From Microcella daejeonensis (GTDB taxonomy: Bacteria > Actinomycetota > Actinomycetes > Actinomycetales > Microbacteriaceae): a stretch of DNA of 64,000 bases. The number at the start of each line of letters is the position of its first letter. Positions within the stretch are counted from its first letter, which is position 1. Location of the stretch: assembly GCF_026625045.1 (NCBI RefSeq), contig NZ_CP113089.1, positions 62,001 to 126,000 on the forward strand, given 5' to 3'. This document shows positions 18,484 through 26,000 of this stretch, piece after piece. The position numbers and the translations under genes were made by a program. The notes under the pieces were generated by a model that did no database searches, had not been told where the DNA came from, and worked only from the letters and a program-made list of their open reading frames with translations.

Positions 18484-21246
18484 TCAATCGCGATCCGTGA
18501 GCCCCCAGGCGTCCTCGTCGGACGACTCGGCCTCGACCTCAGGATAGCCCCGGGTCATGTCGTCGACGGGATCGGCGGAGTACATGCCTCCCCCGCCCGC
18601 GCCATCCGCGGGGAGGGCGGACCCGCCGCCGGACGACGCGGTCGAGGAGGCCGCATCGGAGCCGCGCAGGCGTGCGAGCACCTCGGGCAGCTGGTCGGGC
18701 AGGGCGAGCACGTCACGAGCCTTCGACCCCTCCGAGGGGCCCACGATCTCGCGCGACTCGAGCAGATCCATGAGCCGGCCGGCCTTCGCGAAGCCGACGC
18801 GGAGCTTGCGCTGCAGCATGGACGTCGACCCGAACTGCGTGCTGACGATGAGCTCGGCCGCGGCGAGCAGCAGCTCGAGGTCGTCGCCGATGTCGGCGTC
18901 GATCTGCTTCTTCTCGGCCTCGACGGCGACGTCCTGCCGGTACTCGGGGCGGGCCTGCTTCTTGACGTGCTCGACCACCGCGGCGATCTCGGGCTCGGTG
19001 ACCCAGGCGCCCTGGGCGCGCACCGCCTTGCTCGCCCCCATGGGGAGGAACAGCCCGTCGCCCTGGCCGATCAGCTTCTCGGCGCCGGGCTGGTCGAGGA
19101 TGACGCGGCTGTCGGTCATGCTCGACACCGCGAAGGCGAGGCGGCTCGGCACGTTGGCCTTGATGAGACCCGTCACGACGTCGACGCTCGGGCGCTGCGT
19201 GGCCAGTACGAGGTGGATGCCCGAGGCGCGCGCCAGCTGCGTGATGCGCACGATCGAATCCTCGACGTCGCGGGGCGCGACCATCATGAGGTCGGCGAGC
19301 TCGTCGACCACGACCAGCAGGTACGGATAGGGCTGGAGCTGACGCTTGCTGCCCTCCGGCAGCTCGATCTCGTCGGCGAGCACCGCGCGGTTGAAGTCGT
19401 CGATGTGGCGGAACCCGAACGACGCGAGGTCGTCGTACCGCATGTCCATCTCCTTGACGACCCACTGCAGCGCCTCGGCCGCCTTCTTCGGGCTCGTGAT
19501 GATGGGGGTGATGAGGTGGGGCACGCCCTGGTAGGCGGCGAGCTCGACCCGCTTGGGGTCGATGAGCACCATGCGCACCTCGGCGGGCTTCGCCCGCATG
19601 AGCAGGCTCGTGATCATCGAGTTGATGAAGCTCGACTTGCCCGAGCCCGTCGACCCGGCGACGAGCAGGTGGGGCATCTTGGCGAGGTTCGCGACGACGA
19701 ACCCGCCCTCGACGTCCTTACCGACGCCGATCGTCATGGGGTGCAGCGCCTTCGCCGCGGCGCTCGAGCGCAGCACGTCGCCGAGCGAGACGACCTCGCG
19801 GTCGACGTTGGGGATCTCGACGCCGATCGCGCTCTTGCCGGGGATGGGCGAGAGGATGCTCACCTCGTTGCTCGCGACGGCGTAGGCGATGTTCTTCGTG
19901 AGCGCCGTGAAGCGCTCGACCTTCACGCCGGGCCCGAGCTCCACCTCGTAGCGCGTGACGCTCGGACCGCGGCTGAAGCCCGTCACCCGGGCATCCACCT
20001 GGAACTGCGTCAGCACCTCGGTGATCGCGGCGACGACGGCGTCGTTCGCGGCGCTGCGCGACTTGGGAGGCGTGCCCGGCGCGAGCACCGCCTGGTTCGG
20101 CAGGCGGTAGGGCGGAGCGGTGCGGGCGATCGGCGGCGGGGCGTCGAATTCGCCCGCCTCGCCCTTCTCGCGCGCGCCCGTCGGGAATCCGGGGAGCACG
20201 GCGGGCTCCGCGTCGTCGCGCACGGCGCCGGGGTGGGCAGGCGCCTCGCCGGTGAAGCGCTCGACGGCCTGCTCGGCCTGGTCGAGCACGGCGGCGAGGT
20301 CGCCGGTGACCTTGTCGCGGGCATCCCGATCGATGACGCCCGTCTCGGCGTCGCGCTCGACGGGCGTGTCGAAGGCCGGGACCTCGGCGCGCGGCTTGCC
20401 CTTGCGCCACCACGGCATCGACGACTCGTCCTGGAGATCGAGCCCGAGATCGCTGAAGGTCCCCAGCTCGATCGGGGCGTCGTCGTCCTTCTCCTCCGCG
20501 GCGCGGGGCTCGCGCGGGGCGAGCTCGGCGCCGAAGAGGTAGGAGTACAGCTCGCGGAGCCGGTCGCCAATGCGGTTCGGCGGGGTCTTGGTCATGATGA
20601 GCACCGAGAGCAGGGCGATGATCACGAGAGCCGGCACGGCGACCCACACGGTCGCGAGCAGCAGCACGCCGCCGAGCAGCCAGCCGATGACACCGCCCGC
20701 CTGCGCCAGGCCGACCGCGCCGTCAGCGGGCTGCGGCGCGCCGAGGGCGACGTGGCAGAGGCCGCTCACGCTCGAGATGAGCAGGCCCAGCCCGATGCCG
20801 ATGCGGGTGTTGTCGTGCACGCTCGCCGGATGCCGGAACAACCACGCGGCGAACAGGATCATGATGACGGGCAGCGCGTAGGCGACGCGCCCCACGAGCC
20901 CGCCGAAGGTGTAGGCGTCGAGGGCGACGGCGACGGGGTCGGAGGCGGCGAACCACTCGACGACCGCCCCGACGAGCGCCAGGACGACGATGAGGAAGGG
21001 TACGCCGTCGCGCCGCTCCTCCTTCGCCAGCGTCTCCTTGCCGAGCACGCGGAAGGCACCCCCGGTCGCGTGGGCGAGACCCAGCCAAGCCCTCGTCAGG
21101 ATGCCCGGGCCGGGCTCGGGCGCGACGGGCAGCTTCTTCGTGGCCGCCGTGCGGGTGCTCGCGGGCTTCTTGGCCGCGGAGCCGGAGCGCCCGGCGCTCG
21201 CGGAACTACCGCGCGGGCGCGCCGGGGTGCGACTGGTCGAGGCCAT
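18484..21246 (-). CDS. ftsK: DNA translocase FtsK
   Basis: FtsK pumps chromosomal DNA through the closing septum and helps resolve dimers. The ~920-residue protein has a basic N-terminal stretch ([13 protein letters not shown]), four membrane segments at about residues 60-220, a charged linker, and the hexameric motor domain with [16 protein letters not shown] (Walker A) and [13 protein letters not shown] (Walker B). The C-terminal gamma winged helix has [16 protein letters not shown], the part that reads KOPS sites. The ATG at 21246 is preferred over 21348 because the extra residues are unconserved. It lies upstream of pgsA. Confidence 0.97.
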
Positions 21247-21325: not shown

Positions 21326-22057
21326 TCAGACCGGGCATCCCCCGACACCGCCGTCGGTCGCGGCGACCGCGAACGGCGCGGCCCCCGTCGGCAGCGCCGT
21401 CATCGCGAAGACGCGGTCGAGCTCGGCGGGGCTCCAGTAGCCGGAGGGGTTCGCGGGGTCCTCCCACGCGACCTCGAAGACGAGGATGCCGTCGAGTCCG
21501 TCGAGCACATAGAGGCGTGTCAGCACCGCATCGATGGGCGTCGAGAGCGTCGGGTAAAGGGACAGCAGGTGATCGAGCGGGGTGCCGGCGACGACCCCCT
21601 CCGCGGTCGGGATGGGCGAGGGCGCGAGCACCTGGAAGGCGCCGATCGTGCCGTCGGCCTCCACCCCGGTGCCGAAGGCGAGCCCGCCGTACGAGAACCG
21701 GTAGGGCTCGGCCGCGACCCAGCGCTCGGCGTCGGGAGATCCGGCCGGGATGCCCGCGGACCCGCCCGCGCAGTAGTCGGGCTCGAGCACGACGATCGCC
21801 GCGTCGGCGGAGGGCGGCACCGCATCGCCGACCAGCAGCGGGCCGAGCGCCCCCGGGCCGATCACGAGGTCGACGAGGGCGGGCAGCGCGGCGGGCTCCG
21901 CGGTCGGGGACGCGCTCGGCAGCGGGCTCGCGGAGGGCGCGGCGGTGGAGGGCGTGCCCGGACTCGCGGACGGCGCGGGCGCGCCCGTCGAGCAGGCCGC
22001 GAGCAGCAGAAGCGGCGCGAGGGCGGCGGTGACGAGCACGCGAGCGGGAGTCCTCAT
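21326..22057 (-). CDS. Secreted lipoprotein of unknown function
   Basis: The 243-residue product has a lipoprotein signal peptide ([15 protein letters not shown]; lipid-modified Cys at about residue 21), an Ala/Ser/Pro linker (about 22-55), and a globular domain starting [20 protein letters not shown] with EPDYCAGG and [12 protein letters not shown]. It matches no family I can name. It is a distant relative of the lipoprotein at 22450-23190: both have LV..P..(I/L)G.L..G, a P.YC..G motif and an (L/A)..LYP or LAYP segment. It stands between ftsK and a duplicated RNase J 3' end. Confidence 0.8.
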
Positions 22058-22159: not shown

Positions 22160-22391
22160 CCGCTACGCGGTGATGACCACCGGCACGATCATCGGGCGGC
22201 GGCGGTGCTTCGAGTTGACCCAGCGGCCGACCGTGCGGCGCACGACCTGGCTGAAGCCGTGCGCGTCGCGCGTGCCGTTCTCCGCCGCCTCGCGCAGGGC
22301 CTTGACGACCTGCGGCACGACCTCGTCGAAGATGCTCTCGTCCGGGGCGAAGCCGCGAGCGTGGATCTCGGGGCCGACGACGGGGCGCCCG
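22160..22391. repeat. Direct repeat copy A of the RNase J 3' end
   Basis: This 232-bp stretch matches 23266-23497 with only about four mismatches, all aligned without gaps at an offset of 1106 bp. It includes the stop codon of the RNase J gene. It breaks off abruptly at both ends. Confidence 0.95.
22163..22391 (-). pseudogene. Duplicated 3' fragment of the RNase J gene
   Basis: The fragment encodes the last ~76 residues of RNase J (GRPVVGPEIHARGFAPDES through RRRPMIVPVVITA, then stop). It is in frame with a short chimeric reading frame from the downstream end of the neighbouring lipoprotein gene, but has no start, no nuclease active site and no sign of expression. The only amino-acid change seen against the intact copy is Asn-Ser for Asn-Thr near the end. 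See the intact gene at 23269-24945. Confidence 0.9.
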
Positions 22392-22449
22392 TCCGGGACG
22401 GATGCAGGCCGTAGCGAAGCCATCGAGGTCGAGGCGCCGAACTGCGGCC

Positions 22450-23190
22450 TCAGTAGGCGCACGCCGCGAGCACGTCGTCCGTCCGCCATCGCGTCCGCGG
22501 TTCTTGATCGCCATCGACCGAGCGCATCCCGATCACGTTGCCAGGTCGAACGGCCTCCGGATAGCTCGGCTCCATGGGCGCCGTTGCCGTGAGGAGTTCG
22601 AGCCACATCTGGTGCTCGTCTTCGCGGACGACGAACACCTCGGATTCCGGGCTCGTGGCCTCCACCCGAGCCTCTGGGTAGGCAAGTTCGACTTCAGCGC
22701 GCGTCGACCCGATACCGATCCCCTGCGCGGTCGTCACGTCGCTGAACCATCCGACCTCGACCCCCAGCAAGATCCCGCCGATGACCGCGGCCGAAAATGC
22801 GAAGATCTCGTCGCTTTCCGCCGTCGCGTACTGGTCGATCGGCACCCACGCATCCGAGTAGCTCGTCTCATCGGACCTCGTGTCGGTGCGGCCGTCGCCG
22901 CAATACCCCGGTCGAAAAGTCATCATGTCGTCGGGCTCGTCCCCGATGGCCTCAGTGGTACCGATGACGAGGTCGCCAATGCCGTCGGGGCGGAGGACCA
23001 GCTCCTCGACGGCCGGCGGGGCATCCGCCTCGATGGTCGGCGACGGCGACGGCTCCGGCTCCGCGGACGGCGTCGAAACTGACGGGCTCGGAGTCGCTTC
23101 CGCGACGGGCACGGAGGGCGTAGCGCATCCCGAGACGGTGAGCGCCGCCGCGAGCATGAGAGACGCAGCGGCGGGAAGTCGATGGATCAT
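22450..23190 (-). CDS. Secreted lipoprotein of unknown function, inserted behind RNase J
   Basis: The 246-residue product has a signal peptide with lipobox (LTVSGC; Cys at about residue 22), a Pro/Ser-rich linker, and a domain with ELVLRPDGIGDLVIG, RPGYCGDGRTD and GSTRAEVELAYPEAR. The ATG at 23190 directly follows an in-frame GTG; no good ribosome binding site is seen. It is distantly related to the lipoprotein at 21326-22057. The local DNA is visibly less GC-rich than its neighbours, and it is bracketed by two copies of the RNase J 3' end, which suggests recent acquisition. Function unknown. Confidence 0.82.
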   Translation of the reverse strand: MIHRLPAAASLMLAAALTVSGCATPSVPVAEATPSPSVSTPSAEPEPSPSPTIEADAPPAVEELVLRPDGIGDLVIGTTEAIGDEPDDMMTFRPGYCGDGRTDTRSDETSYSDAWVPIDQYATAESDEIFAFSAAVIGGILLGVEVGWFSDVTTAQGIGIGSTRAEVELAYPEARVEATSPESEVFVVREDEHQMWLELLTATAPMEPSYPEAVRPGNVIGMRSVDGDQEPRTRWRTDDVLAACAY

Positions 23191-23265
23191 CACGGATATG
23201 ACAGTATCGTCGTGGCGACCAGCAGTCCCGACCCTCTCGATCACGATTCCGTTGCGGAACGCGGC

Positions 23266-23497
23266 CCGCTACGCGGTGATGACCACCGGCACGATCATCG
23301 GGCGACGGCGGTGCTTCGTGTTGACCCAGCGGCCGACCGTGCGGCGCACGACCTGGCTGAAGCCGTGCGCGTCGCGCGTGCCGTTCTCCGCCGCCTCGCG
23401 CAGGGCCTTGACGACCTGCGGCACGACCTCGTCGAAGATGCTCTCGTCGGGGGCGAAGCCGCGGGCGTGGATCTCGGGGCCGACGACGGGGCGGCCG
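23266..23497. repeat. Direct repeat copy B of the RNase J 3' end (inside the intact gene)
   Basis: This is the in-gene copy of the 232-bp direct repeat described at 22160-22391. It covers the last ~76 codons of the intact RNase J gene and three bases past its stop. Confidence 0.95.
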
Positions 23498-24945
23498 GTC
23501 TGAGCATCCACCGCCACGAAGATCGAGATGAAGCCCTCCTCCGCGAGCACCCGGCGGTCCTTGAGGTCGGCGTCCGTGATCGTGCCGACCGAGGAGCCGT
23601 CGACGTAGACCTCGCCGAGGTCGAGCTGGCCGACGATGCGGGCGACGCCGTGCTGCAGGTCGACGACCGTGCCGTTGCCGGCGATGATCGTGTTGCGCTC
23701 GGGGACCCCGGTCTCGATGGCCAGCTGCTGGTTGGCGTAGAGGTGCCGGGCCTCGCCGTGCACGGGCATGACGTTCTTCGGGCGCACGATGTTGTAGCAG
23801 TACACGAGCTCGCCCGCCGAGGCGTGGCCCGAGACGTGCACCTTCGCGTTGCCCTTGTGCACGACGTTCGCCCCGAGCGCGATGAGGCCGTTGATGACGC
23901 GGTAGACGGCGTTCTCGTTGCCCGGGATGAGGCTCGAGGCGAGGATGACCGTGTCGCCCTCGCCGACCTCGACCTGGTGGTCCATGTTCGCCATGCGGGC
24001 GAGGACGGCCATCGGCTCGCCCTGCGAGCCCGTCGACATGTAGACGATGCGATCGTCGGGCAGGTCCTTCGCCTTGCGGTGATCGATGAGGATGCCCTCC
24101 GGCACCGTCAGGTACCCGAGCTCGGCGGCGATGGTCATGTTGCGCACCATCGAGCGGCCCATGAAGGCGACCTTGCGGCCGTTCGCGGCCGCGGCGTCGA
24201 CGACCTGCTGCACGCGGTGGACGTGGCTCGAGAAGCTCGCGACGATGACGCGGCGCGGCGCCTTGGCGATGACGCTCTCGAGCACGGGGCCGATGTCGCG
24301 CTCGCGGGCGGTGAAACCCGGCACGTCGGCGTTCGTGGAGTCGGTCATGAAGAGGTCGACGCCGCGCTCGCCCAGGCGGGCGAAGGCGCGCAGGTCGGTG
24401 ATGCGGCGGTCGAGCGGCAGCTGGTCCATCTTGAAGTCGCCCGTGTGCAGCACCGTGCCGGCGACCGTGTGGATCGCGACGGCGAGCGCATCGGGGATGG
24501 AGTGGTTGACCGCGACGAACTCGAGATCGAAGGGGCCGAGCTTCTCGGTCTGCCCCTCCTTCACCGCAAGCGTGTACGGCTGGATGCGGTGCTCCTTGAG
24601 CTTCGCCTCGATGAGGGCGAGCGTGAGCGTCGAGCCGATGAGGGGGATGTCGCTGCGCAGGCGCAGCAGGTACGGCACGGCGCCGATGTGGTCCTCGTGG
24701 CCGTGCGTGAGCACGACGGCGACGATGTCGTCGAGCCGATCGCGGATGGGCGAGAAGTCGGGCAGGATCAGGTCGACGCCGGGCTGGTGCTCCTCGGGGA
24801 AGAGCACGCCGCAGTCGACGACGAGCAGCTTGCCGTCGAGCTCGAAGACGGCCATGTTGCGGCCGATCTCGCCGAGACCGCCGAGGGGGATGACGCGCAG
24901 CGCTCCGGGCGCGAGGGCAGGGGCGTCTTCGATGGCGTGGGGCAC
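23269..24945 (-). CDS. rnj: Ribonuclease J
   Basis: RNase J is a metallo-beta-lactamase-fold endo- and 5'-3' exonuclease for mRNA decay and rRNA maturation. The 558-residue protein has the zinc-binding HGHEDHIGAVPYLL, further ligand motifs TGDFKMDQ and VSGHASAGE, and the beta-CASP region (PVHGEARHL). The C-terminal domain ends RRRPMIVPVVITA. The ATG at 24945 is near the conserved start; about 16 residues precede VIPLGGLGEIGRN. It follows dapA on the same strand (77 bp), as is normal, but its last 232 bp are duplicated downstream. Confidence 0.97.
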   Translation of the reverse strand: MPHAIEDAPALAPGALRVIPLGGLGEIGRNMAVFELDGKLLVVDCGVLFPEEHQPGVDLILPDFSPIRDRLDDIVAVVLTHGHEDHIGAVPYLLRLRSDIPLIGSTLTLALIEAKLKEHRIQPYTLAVKEGQTEKLGPFDLEFVAVNHSIPDALAVAIHTVAGTVLHTGDFKMDQLPLDRRITDLRAFARLGERGVDLFMTDSTNADVPGFTARERDIGPVLESVIAKAPRRVIVASFSSHVHRVQQVVDAAAANGRKVAFMGRSMVRNMTIAAELGYLTVPEGILIDHRKAKDLPDDRIVYMSTGSQGEPMAVLARMANMDHQVEVGEGDTVILASSLIPGNENAVYRVINGLIALGANVVHKGNAKVHVSGHASAGELVYCYNIVRPKNVMPVHGEARHLYANQQLAIETGVPERNTIIAGNGTVVDLQHGVARIVGQLDLGEVYVDGSSVGTITDADLKDRRVLAEEGFISIFVAVDAQTGRPVVGPEIHARGFAPDESIFDEVVPQVVKALREAAENGTRDAHGFSQVVRRTVGRWVNTKHRRRPMIVPVVITA

Positions 24946-25022: not shown

Positions 25023-26000
25023 CTATCGGGTGGTGCCGGCCACCTTCGGCAGGGCACCGCCGGCCGCCGCGTTGCGGTCGGGCCGGAAGCGGGAGAGGTC
25101 GACGCCCGCGATGTCGCGCACGAGCGCCATCTCGTCCTCGATGATCGCCGCCTCGTGATCCTCGGGGCCGACGAGCGGCAGGCGCACGCGCGGGGAGTCG
25201 ATCCGGCCGAGGCCGTGCAGCACGTACTTGGCGGCGACGGTGCCCGGCACGTGCGTCATGATGGCGCGCACGAGGGGCTCCAGGGCCCGGTGGGCGGCCG
25301 TCGCGGTCGCGAGGTCGTTGCTGTTCACCGCGTCCACGATCGTTCGGTACGGCGCGGGCGCGATGTTCGCCGTGACGCCGATGAGGCCGGTGCCGCCGAT
25401 CGCGAGGGTCGGCAGCGCGTTGGCGTCGTCGCCGGCGAAGTACAGCAGGTCGGTCTGGTTCATGACGCGGCTGACCTCGCTGAGGTCGCCCTTCGCGTCC
25501 TTGACGGCGAGGATGTTCGGGTGCTTCGCGGCGCGCAGGATGGTCTCGTACTTGATCTCGATGCCGGCGCGGCCCGGGATGTCGTACAGGATGACCGGCA
25601 GATCGGTCGCGTCGGCGACCATGCGGAAGTGCGTGAGGACCCCGGCCTGCGTGGGCTTGTTGTAGTACGGCGTGACGACCATCACGCCGTCGGCGCCGGC
25701 CTTCTCGCTCGCCTTGTACAGCTCGATCGCGTGCGCGGTCTCGTTCGAGCCGCCGCCCGTGATGATGGATGCCCGGCCCGCGCTCACGGACTTGCCGACC
25801 TCGACCAGCCGCAGCTTCTCGGCGTCGGTCAGCGTGCTCGTCTCGCCCGTCGTGCCGGTGACGACGATGCCGTCGGCGCCGTGGGAGATGAGGTTGTCGA
25901 TGTGCTTCTCGACGCCCGGCCAGTCGACCTCGCCGTCGGCCGTCATCGGGGTCACCAGTGCGACCAGTACCTGGCCGAAGGGGTTGGAAGTCGCGGACAC
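25023..26000 (-). CDS. dapA: 4-hydroxy-tetrahydrodipicolinate synthase
   Basis: DapA condenses pyruvate with aspartate semialdehyde, the first committed step to lysine and diaminopimelate. The 325-residue TIM barrel shows GTTGETSTLTDAEK, VVTPYYNKPTQAG with the catalytic tyrosine, and YDIPGRAGIEI; the Schiff-base lysine is in ILAVKDAKGDLSE. It lies between thyX (51 bp upstream) and the RNase J gene, the classic actinobacterial dapB-thyX-dapA-rnj order, though dapB is here displaced by about 3 kb of redox genes. Confidence 0.97.
   Translation of the reverse strand: MSATSNPFGQVLVALVTPMTADGEVDWPGVEKHIDNLISHGADGIVVTGTTGETSTLTDAEKLRLVEVGKSVSAGRASIITGGGSNETAHAIELYKASEKAGADGVMVVTPYYNKPTQAGVLTHFRMVADATDLPVILYDIPGRAGIEIKYETILRAAKHPNILAVKDAKGDLSEVSRVMNQTDLLYFAGDDANALPTLAIGGTGLIGVTANIAPAPYRTIVDAVNSNDLATATAAHRALEPLVRAIMTHVPGTVAAKYVLHGLGRIDSPRVRLPLVGPEDHEAAIIEDEMALVRDIAGVDLSRFRPDRNAAAGGALPKVAGTTR

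Follow-up and report, generated by a model that had tools for sequence, protein, structure and literature searches.

An extra lipoprotein gene and a duplicated rnj 3' end in the rnj-ftsK gap of Microcella daejeonensis

Comparison with the nearest relative (genome G005) shows that Microcella daejeonensis gained a divergent lipoprotein gene, here called lipo2, after the two lineages split. Judged from the two sequences, a segment of ∼1.1 kb was added between the RNase J gene (rnj) and the lipoprotein gene already resident at the locus (lipo1). Both the rnj and the lipo1 flanks were kept, and host DNA was duplicated, not deleted. The event looks real and recent, and the process looks similar to known kinds of DNA insertion. 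Its likely effect is the addition of a second, very different lipoprotein of a locus-resident family. A compact genome can thus gain a divergent surface gene without harm to the neighboring gene, as the incoming piece restores the gene end.

The locus lies in a window of 64,000 nucleotides (the whole stretch of DNA analyzed), and all positions given below are those of the window. Along the minus strand, rnj is followed by lipo2, an rnj fragment, lipo1, and ftsK. Sequence self-comparison returned a 232 bp direct repeat with copies at 22160-22391 and 23266-23497, 1106 bp apart from start to start and exactly where the earlier note had placed them. The copies are near-identical, as that note said, but they differ at five positions (22199/23305, 22213/23319, 22343/23449, 22358/23464, and 22388/23494) and not at about four. 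Copy 1 (23266..23497, minus strand) is the 3' end of intact rnj and comprises the last 229 bases of the gene and 3 bases past its stop. Intact rnj itself (23269..24945, minus strand) is an ORF of 558 aa, the product of which scored 480 bits against TIGR00649 (cut-off 400) and 542 bits against NF047419 (cut-off 820). Behind it are a candidate −10 box of lipo2, TACTGT (23201..23206, minus strand), 7 bases ahead of a GTG start, and the lipo2 ORF (22450..23193, minus strand), encoding a type C lipoprotein with the lipobox VSGC. A 58 bp tail past the lipo2 stop (22392..22449, minus strand) is joined to rnj codon 484 and is the putative non-homologous junction of the insert. Copy 2 (22160..22391, minus strand) follows; it spans rnj codons 484-558 and the stop, and it still scores as an RNase J C-terminal domain (PF17770, E 1.6e-12). 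The resident lipo1 (21326..22057, minus strand) encodes a type B lipoprotein of 243 aa. The gene on the far flank of the variable gap (18484..21243, minus strand), found behind rnj in congeners, is ftsK-like and is called ftsK here after the earlier note. On the other side of rnj, the constant flank is a dapA-like gene (25023..26000, minus strand), which we presume from its sequence to be dapA.

We also compared 464 kb of the genome piece by piece with itself (the window and 20 stretches of 20 kb). This returned no further direct repeat of 60 bp or more with 80% identity or more, and the 232 bp repeat is therefore not a chance feature. The GC content is 67.2% in the insert (22392-23265), 69.8% in rnj, 76.2% in lipo1, and 72.8% in the whole window. 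The insert is thus lower in GC than its surroundings, as had been claimed, though it is little below rnj.

To decide which rnj end is native, we compared the locus across the genus. rnj was present in 24 of 26 genomes, M. daejeonensis included (one match at E 1e-50), and ftsK lies behind it in 23 of these 24. In the 23 judgeable genomes (G023 was left out, as its contig stops 246 bases past rnj), a second rnj 3' end was detected at E 0.01 in M. daejeonensis alone (1/23), so the fragment is not a feature shared throughout the genus. The rnj-to-ftsK alignment that the earlier note had called for revealed a single lipoprotein and no fragment in the nearest relative: G005 has the order rnj-lipo1-ftsK, its rnj being 99% identical and its lipo1 82.7% identical to ours. 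The rnj end, intergenic region, and lipo1 of G005 align as a single stretch with the fragment, the intergenic region, and lipo1 of M. daejeonensis, and colinearity continues to the start of ftsK. This colinearity indicates, at the level of sequence, that the rnj fragment is the displaced native gene end and that the insertion is derived. As had been proposed, intact rnj was kept whole; it now runs into the new segment, with the native end displaced.

The two rnj ends are close to each other and to G005. Over 226 coding positions, the intact copy shows 5 differences to the fragment, 6 to G005, and 28-46 to the 22 other congeners, and the fragment shows 9 to G005. Five positions set both copies apart from G005; of the five positions where the copies differ from each other, it is the fragment that deviates from G005 at four, and the intact copy at the fifth. 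In addition, the terminal codons ACC GCG TAG occur, among the genus loci, only in M. daejeonensis and G005. The shared positions and these codons place both rnj ends in the host lineage by descent of sequence. Any donor of an rnj end would then have belonged to the same species-level lineage, or conversion would have erased the difference; conversion between the copies could have erased the rnj end of a distant relative. Another sampled congener as the source of an rnj end was rejected on the 28-46 differences in 226 positions and on the clade-specific terminal codons.

The lipoproteins behave differently from the rnj ends. At 27% identity across 184 aligned columns (E 6e-11), lipo1 and lipo2 are, as the alignment reads, distant relatives, as the earlier note had observed. 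Its argument against a simple tandem duplication of rnj end plus lipoprotein also held, and we rejected that explanation: the rnj ends are 98% identical and the lipoproteins 27%.

lipo2 encodes 247 aa from the GTG at 23191-23193 or 246 aa from the ATG at 23188-23190. The candidate −10 box is spaced 7 bases from the GTG and 10 from the ATG, which makes the GTG the likelier start. Applying the lipobox rule by eye, we read LTVSGC in lipo2 and LLAAC in lipo1, and the lipobox cysteine column was nearly invariant in an alignment of 28 sequences. No Pfam family matched lipo1 or lipo2, and the lipoprotein matches in NCBIfam were far under cut-off. The predicted model of lipo2 (mean pLDDT 83.6) had a weak structural likeness to YfeY and to a DUF4309 protein; fold matches as weak as these, made with a predicted model, assign no function to lipo2.

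A search of a 5.8-billion-protein database at E 0.001 returned three sequences, namely lipo2 itself, P0002 (54% identity), and P0003 (44%), the latter two both on short contigs from one metagenomic source, that of P0002 being 1791 bp long. A profile of these three recovered two more proteins (five in total) among the best 7997 candidates. Our tree unites lipo2 with P0002 and P0003 at full support, and it places lipo1 with the G005 lipoprotein (full support), then with that of G007 (94/89), and then with the second lipoprotein of G008/G009 (85/94). Sixty-two of 398 genomes of the family matched lipo2, many of the weaker matches spanning only the signal peptide and a proline-rich stretch. None of the 398 carries a close lipo2 beside rnj (above 38% identity, the best match), and no lipo2 relative was found in genome_contigs, from which the M. 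daejeonensis genome or very near ones may be absent. The first 20 lipo2-like loci (L070-L089) take in M. daejeonensis, four congener loci, and 15 loci from other genera. rnj or ftsK adjoins (within 1.5 kb) in 17 of these 20 and in 12 of the 15 from other genera, from which we conclude that the lipo2-type family is often resident at the rnj-ftsK locus. For the larger set of 29 loci (L070-L098), the count is 18. Tandem arrays of three and two such lipoproteins stand beside ftsK in G193 and G283, respectively (L075 and L086).

The earlier note had proposed import, from a relative, of a segment carrying a different lipoprotein with its own rnj 3' end. Our results partly support this idea, which is right in outline: lipo2-like loci adjoin rnj or ftsK in other genera, and gap content varies between species. 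Relatives of lipo2 do lie next to rnj or ftsK elsewhere; no close one beside rnj was found in the genomes searched, the best genomic match being 38% identical. The part that did not stand is the rnj end of a distant relative, since both ends are of the host lineage; nothing foreign is visible within the rnj copies themselves, which also counts against the mechanism that we propose below. The GC3 of lipo2 (0.81) is inside the range of congener lipoproteins at the rnj-ftsK locus (0.79-0.95), so its low GC is no proof of a foreign genus. When positions 22380-22470 were searched against the 26 genus genomes for the origin of the 58 bp tail, only short matches were returned outside the genome itself, the best being 38 bases at 87% in G004 (E 1.9e-4).

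Counting ORFs of at least 90 aa, we observed six content states of the rnj-ftsK gap in the 23 genomes: no lipoprotein (9 genomes), type A (7), type B (2), types A and B together (2), an opposite-strand gene pair (2), and types C and B with the rnj fragment (M. daejeonensis). The opposite-strand pair fills the gap in G017 and G022 (L066 and L062); we take its genes, from their sequences, to be glycosyltransferase-like and TetR-like, and no rnj fragment was found beside it in either genome. On the rnj-ftsK tree, the states change 9 times. Shuffled states needed 12.4 changes on average, and 2 of 200 shuffles needed as few as the real ones, suggesting that the states partly follow descent. The dapA-rnj gap measures 56-100 bp in 22 of 24 genus loci, M. 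daejeonensis included (the other two were unmeasurable), and 11-137 bp in 22 loci from Agrococcus, the genus to which G322 belongs. This narrow range indicates that large variation is confined to the ftsK side of rnj. The lipoprotein family, often found between rnj and ftsK in Microbacteriaceae and without a Pfam or NCBIfam entry, changes faster at this locus than its flanks.

A TANNNT box ends 6-10 bases ahead of the start in all 15 lipoprotein genes tested at the genus locus, compared with a mean of 0.65 and a maximum of 3 in a shuffled control, a difference whose strength is overstated, as the starts were hand-picked after some boxes had been seen and these genes share ancestry. Actinobacteria are known to have leaderless genes (PMC3160421), and the lipoprotein genes at this locus seem, from these boxes, to carry their own leaderless-type promoter.

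We then surveyed other genomes for rnj scraps with the last 76 RNase J residues at E 1e-6, settings that shorter or older scraps would escape. Among the 398 family genomes, 384 had a match and 12 a double match. Besides M. daejeonensis, the double matches were eight paralogues (second match 27-34% identical, in a long open frame), a split gene in G399, contig ends in G272, and one true case in G322. In G399 (C6:42455-42717), the rnj 3' end is apparently split over two frames, a possible frameshift or sequencing error. In G272, it stands at two contig ends (C17 and C170) with ∼37 codons in common, perhaps as a repeat that broke the assembly. Clear cases of an insert flanked by a second rnj end numbered two in the 398 family genomes. 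Order-wide, 14 of 396 genomes, M. daejeonensis included, had two C-terminal RNase J matches. Twelve of the other 13 second matches lie in open frames of at least 564 aa and were rejected as scraps, being paralogues, and one (G533) is at a contig edge; no further clear case was found among these 396 genomes, some of which belong to the same family.

G322 is Agrococcus sp. Marseille-Q4369 (the name on its cargo protein), a member of the Microbacteriaceae with a single-contig genome. Its insertion (L131, G322:C1:873500-883500) has the same anatomy with an unrelated, low-GC cargo: the 988 bp behind rnj have a GC content of 59%, against 72% for the locus, and contain two ORFs on the opposite strand, neither of which had a Pfam match. 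The rnj fragment is 97% identical over the last 141 bp, with the repeat ending at the stop codon, and ahead of these 141 bp are an inverted 78 bp piece and a weaker direct piece. Altogether, the duplicate measures ∼244 bp (codons ∼475-557), compared with 232 bp in M. daejeonensis. The empty site is seen in G286 and G419 as rnj, ∼115 bp, and the next gene, and beyond its fragment G322 matches these two genomes. In the last 141 bp, 4 positions distinguish the two copies, and G414, another Agrococcus species, differs from either copy at only 2; towards its front, the fragment is 74-86% like any of the sequences compared. By these comparisons the rnj end could have come from a donor in another Agrococcus, and the lineage of the rnj ends is less clear in G322 than in M. 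daejeonensis. Searches with the cargo protein gave weak matches in 16 further genomes of the 398 and a 76% relative on a 4296-base contig. The anatomy is rare; it was found twice, in two genera and with different cargo.

The mechanism that we consider best, and which in our estimate falls only just on the probable side, is a natural insertion-duplication in which a lipo2 segment with a same-lineage rnj end entered by one crossover. The incoming segment would have consisted of the 232 bp of same-lineage rnj end, a promoter, lipo2, and the 58 bp tail. Its rnj end would have recombined with the resident one in a single homologous crossover, the other end of the segment being joined without homology at rnj codon 484. 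The segment might have been a small DNA circle, closed at the codon-484 joint and integrated in the Campbell fashion, or a linear fragment that bridged two sister chromosomes at offset positions. rnj would be left whole, lipo1 would retain its own promoter box, and lipo2 would bring one. lipo2 may first have come to stand behind a same-lineage rnj via replacement in a sibling strain; no strain with rnj-lipo2-ftsK minus the fragment was found in the 398 family genomes or in genome_contigs. The 232 bp repeats would permit later loss of the segment.

The end of the repeat, 3 bases past the stop, is expected where two alleles of the locus diverge. With G005 taken as ancestral, the fragment has changed letters at repeat positions 3, 33, 48, and 178, and the intact copy has one at 192. 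Their order fits one crossover between 178 and 192, and random placing gives such a fit in 19-44%. The changed letters in the last 141 bp of G322 run intact, fragment, fragment, intact, and a single crossover there would need one further mutation. The last change in the intact copy falls on different codons in the two genomes, by alignment. The letter order is weak support for one crossover.

An integron gene cassette is a small unit of one gene and one recombination region that joins a fixed site. The segment described here resembles it as a small one-gene unit with one recombination region at a fixed site, but no integrase was seen, and the shared region is the end of a housekeeping gene. 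In Campbell-type insertion-duplication, a single crossover with a circular molecule in E. coli gave duplications in 56 of 60 clones, measuring 109-950 bp in 14 sequenced clones (PMC3240628). The arrangement of intact gene, insert, and duplicated gene part is found here as well, the partial copy being of the same lineage; however, that account concerns a laboratory plasmid at lacZ, whereas ours is a natural one-gene segment of 1.1 kb, for which a circle is our inference. Interchromatid integration of transforming DNA is described as giving duplications of mostly ∼100-900 kb (PMC3784515). Homology-facilitated illegitimate recombination, as portrayed in PMC3240628, likewise has one homologous and one non-homologous joint and a short foreign fragment, but it generally combines the insertion with a deletion of similar size, where we see a duplication. 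Variable surface-lipoprotein loci of Borrelia, as described in PMC11389397, share a lipoprotein locus and recombination between relatives, though in a different bacterial group. Our literature searches found nothing on the RNase J gene as a genomic-island integration site, nothing on this rnj-ftsK locus among the titles and abstract openings listed, and nothing that joins single crossover or circularization, gene acquisition, and a partial or truncated gene copy.

The rnj end might instead have arrived on a site-specific integrative element with an attachment site near rnj codon 484 that brought along the remaining rnj codons and the stop. What is seen now would be a minimal or decayed island, its integrase lost or acting from elsewhere. 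Such an element would explain a restored gene with its displaced end on the far side, an anatomy like that of prophage e14 in E. coli icd, where the incoming DNA supplies the gene end and the displaced native end remains as a 163 bp icd' duplicate (PMC6379469). The duplicates are also similar in length (232 bp here and ∼244 bp in Agrococcus), and in both cases the repeat ends 0-3 bases from the stop. Unlike in the account of e14, however, we found no integrase or phage gene and no definable attachment core. No integrase-like gene was found in the 0.9 kb insert: Pfam gave no match for lipo2 or for the two longest ORFs on the opposite strand (22402-23082 and 22880-23503), and PHROGs gave none below E 0.19. 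Moreover, the rnj ends belong to the host lineage, the two cases have different 5' borders, and the other second matches in the 398 family genomes, save that of G272, are explained otherwise. We regard an integrative element as distinctly unlikely. Repair of a break just behind rnj, mended with a captured lipo2 fragment and the rnj end of the sister chromosome, is rather unlikely. The duplication would be a by-product with no donor rnj, which suits two rnj copies of the host's own lineage, and template switching would leave an inverted piece like the one of 78 bp in the Agrococcus fragment. Yet the repeat stops 0-3 bases from the stop in both cases, in gaps from rnj to the next gene that measure ∼90-115 bp in the nearest relatives of both; two random breaks would be unlikely to do so, and this end of homology favors the joining of two alleles over random break repair. 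Furthermore, the lipo2 family is frequent at this very locus, as a randomly captured piece would not be.

We give very little credence to an old tandem pair of lipoproteins behind rnj, between which a later exchange with an rnj-lipo1 allele put the rnj end. Two lipoproteins do stand in a row in G008 and G009, and lipo1 and the second of these fall in one group with middling support (85/94), but the fully supported group that lipo2 forms with P0002 and P0003 does not include the first lipoprotein of G008/G009, and lipo2 is absent from G005. Lastly, a repeat is involved and the case is judged from the assembly, so an assembly error or strain mixture has to be weighed. This is unlikely, to the point of being barely credible: the assembly is one contig of 2,720,089 bases with 99.98% completeness and 0.07% contamination, the copies differ at five positions with unique sequence between them, and a like case exists in another single-contig genome.

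Should strains of this species exchange segments of this kind, the rnj-ftsK locus would offer a simple natural setting in which to study how actinobacteria gain genes by homologous recombination. A wider reading, which we think improbable, is that the rnj 3' end is a recurrent docking site in Microbacteriaceae, where close relatives trade small rnj-end cassettes without an integrase. One- or two-gene cassettes with ∼230-250 bp of rnj end would be joined by homologous recombination, rnj would be kept whole, and an rnj scrap would be left as a scar. One locus could then hold several very different surface or secreted proteins.

Two further observations concern the rnj end. In G008, 4.2 tandem copies of a 59 bp unit lie between rnj and the first lipoprotein gene (L067:5454-5701), and the unit extends into the rnj stop region. 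In G006, G007, G008, G009, G012, G016, G019, G020, G022, and G023, the last rnj codons and the stop are inside a perfect or near-perfect hairpin, for example GTGATCGAGGC-GTA-GCCTCGATCAC, with paired changes between species; the end of the rnj coding sequence apparently also serves as one arm of a terminator-like structure.
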